Positions 4,619 to 48,374 of a stretch of DNA of 64,000 bases are shown one piece after another. Within the stretch, counting starts at the first letter, position 1. Every line of letters begins with the position of its first letter. The notes under the pieces are model-generated. The model was not told the origin of the DNA, did not search any database, and saw only the letters and a list, made by a program, of their open reading frames with translations. The DNA is from Ornithinimicrobium sufpigmenti (GTDB lineage: Bacteria > Actinomycetota > Actinomycetes > Actinomycetales > Dermatophilaceae), in NCBI RefSeq assembly GCF_004322775.1, contig NZ_CP036403.1:2790001-2854000 (forward strand). Reading direction: 5' to 3'. Made by a program: the position numbers and the translations under genes.

Positions 4619-5059
4619 TCAGGGTTGGCACTGCACCGGCGCCTCCACTTTCGCCTCCACCTTCTGCCGCACATGCTCAATGAGCTGGCAGGTGGTCCCC
4701 GCGTCCGCCGGCGGTAGGTTGTCCGCCTCGGCGGCGAGCTCCACGAGTTGGCCGCGCAGGTCCTGTAGCTCGGTGATGCGCCGGTCGATGGTGCTCACCT
4801 GCGCGTCGAGCACCCCGCGGACGTAGGTGCAGGGCACCTCGCCCCGCTCCCGGAACCCGAGGATCTCTTTGACCTCATCGAGGGTGACCCCGAGCCGCTG
4901 GGCGGTGCGGATGAACCGCAACCGGTCGACGGCGTCCTCGTCGTAGACGCGGTAACCCGAAGGGGTGCGCCCCGGGTCGGGCAGCAGCCCGATCGACTCG
5001 TAGTACCGGATCGTCTTCGGGTTCACGCCCAACCGGCCAGCCAGCTCACCAATCCTCAT
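4619..5059 (-). CDS. MerR-family metal-responsive regulator 1
   Basis: 146 residues with a MerR winged helix (MRIGELAGRLGVNPKTIRYYESIGLLPDPGRTPSGYRVY is residues 1-39 in outline), then a dimerisation helix. Cysteines are at 77 (PCTYV), 124 (TTCQLIEH) and 144. C77 is the cysteine shared by MerR, CadR and PbrR-type sensors; the others could complete a thiol site. The ATG at 5059 has GGGAGG upstream. It converges on the DUF326 gene. It probably controls one or more of the dyad promoters at 4188, 4248 and 5602; which regulator acts where cannot be read from sequence. Confidence 0.9.
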   Translation of the reverse strand: MRIGELAGRLGVNPKTIRYYESIGLLPDPGRTPSGYRVYDEDAVDRLRFIRTAQRLGVTLDEVKEILGFRERGEVPCTYVRGVLDAQVSTIDRRITELQDLRGQLVELAAEADNLPPADAGTTCQLIEHVRQKVEAKVEAPVQCQP

Positions 5060-5100: not shown

Positions 5101-5176
5101 GGTCCCCGTCGGCATGAGTCGGACCGGCCCACATGCGGAACGTTCTCGGTGCTGGCACCCGCACCGCCCGTGGGGG

Positions 5177-5566
5177 TCACAGGTAGCGGCAGACGGTCGT
5201 GGCGTCGCAGTGTGTGGGGTCGACCGTGGCGGCATCGTCGCGGAGGCGGGCGACTGTGTGCCGCAGTGCCTGCAGGTCGGCGATCTGGCGGTCCAGGTCG
5301 CCCAGGTGGGCATCGAGCAGGTCTTGCACGTGCTGGCAGGGCGGGACCCCGGCGTCGCGGATGTCGAGGACGTCGCGGATCTGGGCCAGAGTGAGCCCAG
5401 CAGTGCGGCTGCGGCGGATGAAGTCCAGGCGCGCCAGGGTCTCCGGGGCGTAGTCCCGGTATCCGCTGGCGGTGCGCTCGGGCGCGGGCAGGAGCCCGGC
5501 TTCTTCGTAGAACCTCAGCGTCTTGGTCGTGGTGCCGCTGGCCTCGGCCAGCTCACCGATCCGCAC
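5177..5566 (-). CDS. MerR-family metal-responsive regulator 2
   Basis: 129 residues: a MerR winged helix (MRIGELAEASGTTTKTLRFYEE, split here as residues 1-22), a coiled dimer helix, and cysteines at 77 (PPCQHV), 120 and 126 (HCDATTVC). The C-terminal C-x5-C plus C77 resembles metal-binding loops of CueR/ZntR/PbrR-type sensors. The start is GTG 5566 with AAAGGG upstream. It is divergent from merA and shares its promoter region, the usual arrangement for the direct regulator of that gene. The dyad at 5604-5627 could serve both directions. Confidence 0.9.
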   Translation of the reverse strand: MRIGELAEASGTTTKTLRFYEEAGLLPAPERTASGYRDYAPETLARLDFIRRSRTAGLTLAQIRDVLDIRDAGVPPCQHVQDLLDAHLGDLDRQIADLQALRHTVARLRDDAATVDPTHCDATTVCRYL

Positions 5567-47033: not shown

Positions 47034-47064
47034 TTGACTCTCATCCAGGTCGAGACCTCAGGGT
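47034..47064 (+). promoter_or_regulatory. MerR-type promoter, probably autoregulated and leaderless
   Basis: TTGACT (47034-47039), a 19-bp spacer, and CAGGGT (47059-47064). The spacer contains arms AGGTC and GACCT around GA. The predicted start of transcription falls on the ATG at 47071, so the mRNA would have no leader. The long spacer is what MerR regulators act on. Confidence 0.65.
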
Positions 47065-47070
47065 GGCGCC

Positions 47071-48099
47071 ATGACGACGGACCCTGAGCAGCTGCTCTCC
47101 ATCGGCGAGCTCTCCCGCGCGAGCGGACTGACCGTGAGCGCCCTGCGCTTCTACGACGGCGCCCAGGTCCTGACGCCTGCGTGGGTGGACAGCTGGTCCG
47201 GCTACCGCCGCTACTCCCCCGGGCAGGTGACGGAGGCGCGCATCCTGGCGGGGATGCGCCGGGTGCAGATGCCGGTGGCCGAGATGGCCGCCACGCTGGA
47301 AGCGCTCCGGGGCGGGGATCCGGACAGCGCCCGCGACCTGCTCTCGGCGCACCTGAGACGGCTCGAGGAGGGCCTGGAGGACGCGCGCCGCCAGCTTGCG
47401 CAGCTGCACCATGCGTTGGCCGAGCCAGCACGCCGGGACGCGGCGGCTGACAGGGCGCCTTCGGAGGTGCCTGCTCAGACCCTGCTGGCCATGCTCGCTG
47501 CGGTGCGGCACGCTGCCGGCACCGACCCGGAGCTGCCGGCCCTGAGGAGCGTGCTCATCGAGGTGGGCGAGGAGCTGACGGTCGTGGCCACGGACCGCTT
47601 CCGGATGGTGGTGGCCGGACGCTGGCACCGGGCCGGCGCGGCGGAACCCCAGGTGGGATCGGTGGTGCTGCCGACGGGTGAGGCGGACCGGCTGACCCGC
47701 TGGCTCTCCGGCCGGCACGGCTCGCTCGCCCTCACGGCCCAGGAGCAGCTGCTGGTCGTGCGCTGCGGGGGCGAGGAGCTGCGGCTCGCGGGGCTCGAGG
47801 AGACCTTCCCGGACTACCGCCGTGTGCTGGAGCACGGGGCCCCGCTGCGGCCGCTGCCGGAGGAACAGCTGCGCGCCGCGCTCGACAGGGAGGACGTGGT
47901 GGTGGACCTGGGCGGCGTCCTGGTCGACCGCGGCTTCCTCTGGGAGGCGGTGAGCCATGTGCCCGACTGTCAGGTGCTCCTGCCGGCCGACGGCGTCATC
48001 GCACCCCTCGTCGTCCGCTCCCCCGATGACCTCGACGTGGTGGCGCTCCTCATGCCGCTCGCTCCTGAGCGGTCCTGGCGGAGCCACGACCGGCCATGA
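47071..48099 (+). CDS. MerR-type HTH fused to a DNA polymerase III beta-clamp-like domain
   Basis: 342 residues. Residues about 9-80 are a MerR winged helix (LSIGELSRASGLTVSALRFYD in motif, with SGYRRYSPGQV), then a coiled dimer helix to about 130. The rest resembles DnaN sliding-clamp folds: LRSVLIEVGEELTVVATDRF followed by RMVVAGR is close to the clamp LTLVATDRYRLAV stretch, and a second repeat with FPDYRRVLEHG matches clamp domain 3. There is no Cys metal site in the HTH part. The stop overlaps the next gene (ATGA). A MerR dyad in its own promoter suggests autoregulation. Confidence 0.85.
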   Translation: MTTDPEQLLSIGELSRASGLTVSALRFYDGAQVLTPAWVDSWSGYRRYSPGQVTEARILAGMRRVQMPVAEMAATLEALRGGDPDSARDLLSAHLRRLEEGLEDARRQLAQLHHALAEPARRDAAADRAPSEVPAQTLLAMLAAVRHAAGTDPELPALRSVLIEVGEELTVVATDRFRMVVAGRWHRAGAAEPQVGSVVLPTGEADRLTRWLSGRHGSLALTAQEQLLVVRCGGEELRLAGLEETFPDYRRVLEHGAPLRPLPEEQLRAALDREDVVVDLGGVLVDRGFLWEAVSHVPDCQVLLPADGVIAPLVVRSPDDLDVVALLMPLAPERSWRSHDRP

Positions 48100-48374
48100 G
48101 CGTCCTGATGCACCTGTGCCGCACGTGCGGGCACCGGGCCACCTCGCACGCGGGCAGGGACCGCGGCTACAGCGGGTGCCGGTGCTGCCTCGGCGACGGT
48201 GACGTCGATCCCCGGCCGGTGCTCGTCGACACCTTTGCCAGCCCCTCCGGACGGCTCGAGCCGCTCTACCCGCCCGGGACGGTCTGGAACGCGGGGACCA
48301 TGCACCAGCTCACCCTCTGCGACTGCAGGGCCTGCGGTGCTGAGTACGGGCGGCTCACGGCCTTGTCCGGGTGA
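48096..48374 (+). CDS. Zinc-ribbon-like protein coupled to the MerR-clamp fusion
   Basis: 92 residues with cysteines at CRTCGH (near 8-11), CRCC (near 28-31) and CDCRACG (near 74-79). Paired CxxC and CxCC knuckles suggest a structural zinc site. No catalytic family is recognised. The ATG overlaps the upstream stop by 4 bp, implying that the two proteins are made together. Confidence 0.7.
   Translation: MSVLMHLCRTCGHRATSHAGRDRGYSGCRCCLGDGDVDPRPVLVDTFASPSGRLEPLYPPGTVWNAGTMHQLTLCDCRACGAEYGRLTALSG

Follow-up and report, generated by a model that had tools for sequence, protein, structure and literature searches.

A MerR-type regulator joined to a sliding-clamp fragment in actinobacteria, a putative autoregulated sensor of clamp ligands

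A 19-bp-spacer operator logic is typical of the BmrR/BrlR-type class of drug-sensing MerR regulators, whose ligand domains have folds other than that of the sliding clamp. A sensor domain derived from the family of the antibiotic's own target is found in BlaR1/MecR1, i.e., in a membrane sensor-protease. The precedent for a two-start arrangement is given by TipAL/TipAS, as described in the part of PMC7762955 drawn on here. With regard to the sliding clamp (DnaN) itself, griselimycin is a clamp ligand from Streptomyces that binds between clamp domains II and III, and resistance to it is rare and arises by amplification of the dnaN/ori region (according to the passages of PMC5694481 used here). 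Mycoplanecin is likewise a known clamp ligand, and GriR/MypR are the second clamps of the griselimycin and mycoplanecin producers (from excerpts of PMC10817943).

Within the window (i.e., the whole 64,000-nt stretch of Ornithinimicrobium sufpigmenti DNA that was analysed), the plus strand carries a gene (47071..48099; recognized as an ORF and by its Pfam matches and homologs) for a protein of 342 amino acids. An earlier note on this DNA had proposed that this gene joins a MerR winged helix in one frame to a clamp-like region, and Pfam and structure matching bear this out, so that the MerR-clamp fusion is real as far as the sequence goes. The N-terminal winged helix-turn-helix (HTH; residues 10–77, 47098..47301) scored above the cut-off for PF13411/PF00376, and the best PDB sequence matches of this head were BrlR/BmrR-type structures, covering the HTH/helix part of the query only. 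It is followed by a long helix predicted by AlphaFold2 (residues 84–125, 47320..47445), the putative MerR dimerisation coiled coil. Behind this helix lie a sliding-clamp domain II (residues 133–248, 47467..47814; from PF02767, structure match and pocket conservation), which carries the TDRFRM and FPDYRR pocket motifs, and a shortened sliding-clamp domain III (residues 257–330, 47839..48060; from the family profile versus PDB clamps and the structure match), which ends in the LLMP pocket strand.

The suggestion that the sensor part is clamp-like also held when structures were compared with DnaN, in that residues 127–332 fold like domains II–III of the beta sliding clamp, the structure match running up to residue 332. 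Domain I is absent, with the HTH and helix preceding domain II, and at the clamp dimer interface positions 272/273 (E. coli numbering) are not kept and positions 298–304 are mostly deleted or changed; because of these losses the fusion would not be expected to close into a normal clamp ring. Among the relatives read, the two halves were incidentally met nowhere as separate genes. Elsewhere in the window, a MerR-like HTH match to the query (5174–5566, minus strand; E of 9.4e-11 in the own genome) contains a TGA inside the matched stretch and could represent either a further MerR gene or a gene fragment, and a second own-genome match at 4865–5059 was not significant (E of 1.34).

By sequence, the clamp's partner-binding pocket is present in the fusion. 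At the 18 pocket residues of the E. coli clamp (listed in the part of PMC11139829 drawn on here) the mean entropy was 0.71 bits, vs. 1.87 bits at the 197 other ungapped positions (188 sequences after thinning 201; Mann-Whitney p of 4e-7, kinship ignored), and family consensus and host DnaN agreed at 13 of the 18 pocket positions vs. 48 of 201 others. More specifically, T172, G174 (as R), R176, and M362 were invariant in the family and L155, P242, and P363 nearly so, and TDRYR stands at the place of the pocket motif in the host DnaN as it does in the fusion family. In the protein encoded in the window, domain III is truncated, and the pocket differs from that of the host DnaN at N320 (D), R365 (A), and some further positions. 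In these alignments the peptide- and antibiotic-binding pocket is among the best-kept parts of the clamp fragment, a conservation that would fit protein ligands as well as antibiotics. The two clamp domains kept by the fusion are also the ones that flank the griselimycin pocket.

Of the 7995 candidates scored in a protein search, 867 were homologs at E≤1e-3, and several of the best 120 listed bear the name of a MerR regulator or of a "DNA polymerase III subunit beta family protein". A public-genome scan revealed at least 475 stretches encoding some relative, the 80 best loci of which were kept (81 with the window); genera among these 80 include Ornithinimicrobium, Streptomyces, Kitasatospora, Micromonospora, Actinoplanes, and Pseudonocardia. 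Among the matches listed for 396 genomes sampled from the phylum, 11 (own genome included) span both parts, all of them within the window's class, and the other listed matches that were read cover one part only. Fusion matches were present in 24 of 119 genomes of the window's family, in 114 of 121 Micromonospora genomes and, at E≤1e-35, in 39 of 81 Streptomyces genomes, i.e., the distribution is patchy, though near-general in Micromonospora. Twenty of the Streptomyces matches are strong (E<1e-100); the other 19 are weaker, with three of them matching the profile in part only, and seem to form a second subfamily of fusions. Loci L096, L100, L163, L164, L170, and L171 represent a divergent second subfamily with a longer domain III, and the second-subfamily promoter is related (TTGACCTTC...).

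Both close and distant members were also observed on large plasmids of Streptomyces, Embleya, and Kitasatospora, in one case as a part only. Phage carriage was not apparent, since none of the 35 matching phage records covered 80% of the query, and the 15 phage matches listed were annotated as clamps or carried no annotation. PADLOC matched only the HTH region of the fusion. A MerR-clamp fusion is not described in the open PMC literature, as judged by titles and the starts of abstracts; the family is thus actinobacterial, present in databases, and undescribed in the literature searched. Neighbour conservation was rejected as a guide to function because the flanking genes are common mainly within genera.

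The fusion gene is preceded by a MerR-type promoter/operator (47034..47064, plus strand; -35 TTGACT, 19-bp spacer, -10 CAGGGT, by sequence reading) that is leaderless and, as stated in the earlier note, has its -10 box ending 6 nt before the ATG. All 81 loci contain a site close to the operator consensus TTGACCCTCGACCtgGTcgAGGgcnCAGggT (16–20 of the 20 specified positions), and in 73 of them the first in-frame start follows the -10 box at 6–8 nt. The MerR promoters of these loci are therefore of one kind, mostly leaderless, with the dyad of a MerR-family operator lying within the over-long 19-bp spacer (14/15 in the consensus core, and 10/15 in the window with a shuffle P of 0.025). With flanking genes shared mainly within genera, the common target of the operator is the fusion's own promoter. 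In line with the TipA class, such a position predicts regulation of the own promoter, and the fusion gene is apparently autoregulated.

Genome-wide scans, with patterns derived from the very loci by which the family was defined, suggest that the operator is nearly specific. The own genome contains a single site by pattern scan, i.e., the one in the window. Across 81 Streptomyces genomes, 20 sites were found in 20 genomes, all 20 before a fusion gene (0 with the reversed-pattern control), and no target other than the fusion gene was detected. Nineteen of the 20 genomes with a strong fusion had the operator; the one remaining site lies before a fusion copy disrupted by deletion (L274, G575), in which operator and start are intact and a deletion and frame change lie between the HTH and the clamp part. 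The Streptomyces pattern missed one of the 20 strong members and nearly all of the weaker ones. A looser pattern was applied to 26 genomes (the window's family and two named relatives) and gave 31 sites in 22 genomes, i.e., 20 before the fusion, seven before an unlinked zinc-ribbon gene, and four elsewhere; the last four are at chance level, since the reversed looser pattern gave eight sites in these 26 genomes. It missed the fusion promoter in six of them (G397, G417, G424, G427, G450, and G475). The sole other repeated target in this set was the zinc-ribbon gene, also where unlinked.

In the window, this zinc-ribbon gene (48096..48374, plus strand; an ORF of 92 codons' worth of protein, with 15 homologs found) overlaps the end of the fusion gene by ATGA and is probably co-transcribed with it. 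It was present in 18 of the 119 family genomes, each of which is also among the 24 of 119 with a fusion match (hypergeometric 1.5e-16, kinship ignored). In 11 of the 18 it follows the fusion (10 by coordinates, and G407 by the preceding tail of a clamp gene), and in the other seven it is unlinked and located behind its own operator copy, at once or after a short leader; the fusion frame was not located in 11 of the 23 loci of this reading. Both the co-occurrence and the operator copies at the seven unlinked genes back the idea, also voiced in the earlier note, that the two genes form a functional unit. Judging by these co-occurrence and operator patterns, the zinc-ribbon gene is strongly linked to the regulator, and the regulon offers an initial clue to a zinc-ribbon family that is so far uncharacterised. 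In L136, L143, and L144 the unlinked zinc-ribbon gene is separated from its operator by an apparent leaderless mini-ORF, which has an ATGA overlap at its end and may be what is left of a lost fusion gene, or else encode a leader peptide. The AlphaFold2 model of the zinc-ribbon protein was weak (pLDDT of 70), and its comparison with the PDB gave no useful match (best E of 9.3). A QLTLC stretch in the window's zinc-ribbon protein was considered as a clamp-binding motif and dropped, as it is not kept in the alignment.

Among 101 Micromonosporaceae genomes, 62 sites were found in 34 genomes (control 0), and all 34 have one before the fusion gene. Sixty of the sites were read, revealing 32 before the fusion and 28 extra ones spread over 20 genomes; the remaining two also precede the fusion. 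The extra sites lie before genes for TPR-like proteins (10), MFS transporters (6), and YunG (3), or in the dnaA-dnaN region (5), and four are unassigned; Pfam was run on five examples, in which the TPR matches fell below the cut-off. By eye, extra sites also precede MFS-like genes in Micromonospora thermarum and Actinoplanes sp. TFC3. A small gene behind an operator in the latter (L120), and another in Pseudonocardia nigra that seemingly overlaps the fusion end (L042, 8017–8475), resemble the TPR-like targets by eye. The MFS genes would be resistance-type targets in Micromonosporaceae; as resistance genes, the zinc-ribbon, TPR-like, and YunG targets are atypical.

Six Micromonospora stretches were selected for the DnaA boxes behind the site, and in all of them the operator points to dnaN from 659–672 nt before its start; five of these stem from the six Micromonospora genomes of the 101-genome scan, and the sixth is M. 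thermarum. Pfam placed DnaA upstream and DnaN downstream of the operator in L122. The combination of an operator with a nearby DnaA box recurs across Micromonospora, where 64 of 121 genomes have it (none in the control; most of them known from the pattern only), all 64 being among the 114 genomes with a fusion match and none among the seven without. This operator sits within the DnaA-box region, and at its free positions conservation barely exceeds that of the 21 nt next to it (0.94 vs. 1.02 bits, in 37 hand-picked sites of the 64). No operator was found near dnaN in the window's genome at up to 2 mismatches. In Micromonosporaceae the fusion possibly controls dnaN, judging by the position of these sites.

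A putative internal start was observed in the linker of 64 of the 81 loci, consisting of an ATG (60) or GTG (4) with an SD-like stretch, which other internal ATGs carry in 23 of 314 cases. AGGGAG was present at the internal start in 30 of 36 loci vs. 0.98 expected upon synonymous resampling, and the arginine codon before this start is often the rare AGG. Resampling of all 57 loci gave a milder result (strong SD in 51 vs. 26.9 expected), in a set that left out 10 of the 81 loci and took in one false TTG (L009). In additional loci, some of whose species may already be represented among the 81, the internal start was found in 20 of 22 (Streptomyces and one Micromonospora), 23 of 32 (Micromonosporaceae), 4 of 22 (the window's family), and 1 of 14 (second subfamily). 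Such a second start would yield a clamp-only short form in most of the Streptomyces and Micromonosporaceae members read. The window's own fusion gene has no second start, and the two isoforms of the TipA class are not encoded there.

We favour the interpretation, with a probability of about 0.57, that the fusion is an autoregulated TipA-like MerR sensor whose clamp-derived pocket detects clamp ligands, most likely antibiotics of the griselimycin/mycoplanecin type. A clamp ligand would enter the clamp-type pocket and thereby switch the MerR dimer, presumably on its DNA, which would activate the 19-bp-spacer promoter and turn on the fusion's own leaderless gene. A small lineage-specific set would be turned on as well, i.e., the zinc-ribbon protein in the window's family, and MFS transporters, YunG, TPR-like proteins, and possibly dnaN in Micromonosporaceae. 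Where the internal start is present, the free clamp fragment might soak up ligand, as TipAS does with thiopeptides, so that fusion, clamp-only form, transporter, zinc-ribbon protein, and perhaps the clamp would together deal with the ligand. The clamp-sensor switch appears to govern its own gene, along with a handful of further genes in many actinobacteria, among them those for export pumps and possibly the clamp gene. This suggests that a surplus part of an antibiotic target serves cells as a detector of compounds attacking that target. A bolder version, which we put forward tentatively and with some doubt, holds that the clamp pocket on a MerR head is a dedicated alarm and decoy against clamp-binding antibiotics, driving efflux, clamp-only decoys and, in Micromonospora, expression of the oriC/dnaN region as a target-level adaptation.

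The pocket retained is the one at which the clamp binds its known partners, and the clamp fragment could instead sense these endogenous proteins, with free polymerases or repair proteins bearing a clamp-binding motif titrating the regulator, which would then report replication stress and adjust dnaN and helper genes. The operator between dnaA and dnaN in Micromonospora would suit such a role; the patchy distribution and the MFS targets, however, are more in keeping with an accessory than with a core response, and we regard endogenous sensing as unlikely. That the fragment has lost partner binding and acts solely as a domain for dimerisation or for a metabolite would agree with the shortened domain III and the lost clamp interface, but is very improbable given how much better the pocket positions are kept (T172, R176, P242, M362, and P363 included). 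The earlier note had further raised the prospect of transcription control placed at replication forks. With only clamp homology to speak for it, a fusion acting as a clamp at forks is scarcely credible, as domain I and the interface residues are gone and the few operators per genome lie at particular promoters.

Another alternative is that the fusion belongs to a defence response and recognises phage proteins or toxins by which the host clamp is inhibited. A complex of the clamp with Gp168, which we take to be a phage protein, was among the structure matches, and the plasmid-borne fusion copies would be in keeping with such a role. The same site on DnaN, moreover, is reportedly the target of the toxin SocB (in the passages of PMC5694481 used here). 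We nevertheless consider this alternative improbable, as transporter targets do not suit a protein ligand, flanking genes are common mainly within genera, and the PADLOC match is limited to the HTH region.

If a widespread sensor of clamp ligands is indeed involved, soil actinobacteria would often meet clamp-binding compounds, the system would offer a ready reporter for new clamp-binding natural products, and it would plainly exemplify the conversion of an antibiotic target into a transcriptional sensor. Compared with known systems, the fusion resembles TipA in its MerR head, its apparently autoregulated promoter, its C-terminal ligand domain and, in most Streptomyces and Micromonosporaceae relatives read, a second start for the ligand domain alone. 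It differs from TipA in having a sliding-clamp fragment as effector domain (the TipAS domain PF07739 was absent among its Pfam matches at E up to 10) and, for the window's member, in the missing second start. BmrR/BrlR are similar in the HTH, for which they gave the best PDB matches, in the operator with its 19-bp spacer, and in the MFS targets of some genomes. BlaR1/MecR1 are alike in concept, with a fold unrelated to that of the fusion. GriR/MypR likewise connect a clamp-type protein with clamp-binding antibiotics, but are described in the excerpts of PMC10817943 used here as DnaN-encoding self-resistance genes and not as transcription factors. With DnaN, finally, the fusion shares the fold of domains II–III and the ligand pocket, whereas it is devoid of domain I and the clamp dimer interface and is joined to a DNA-binding head.
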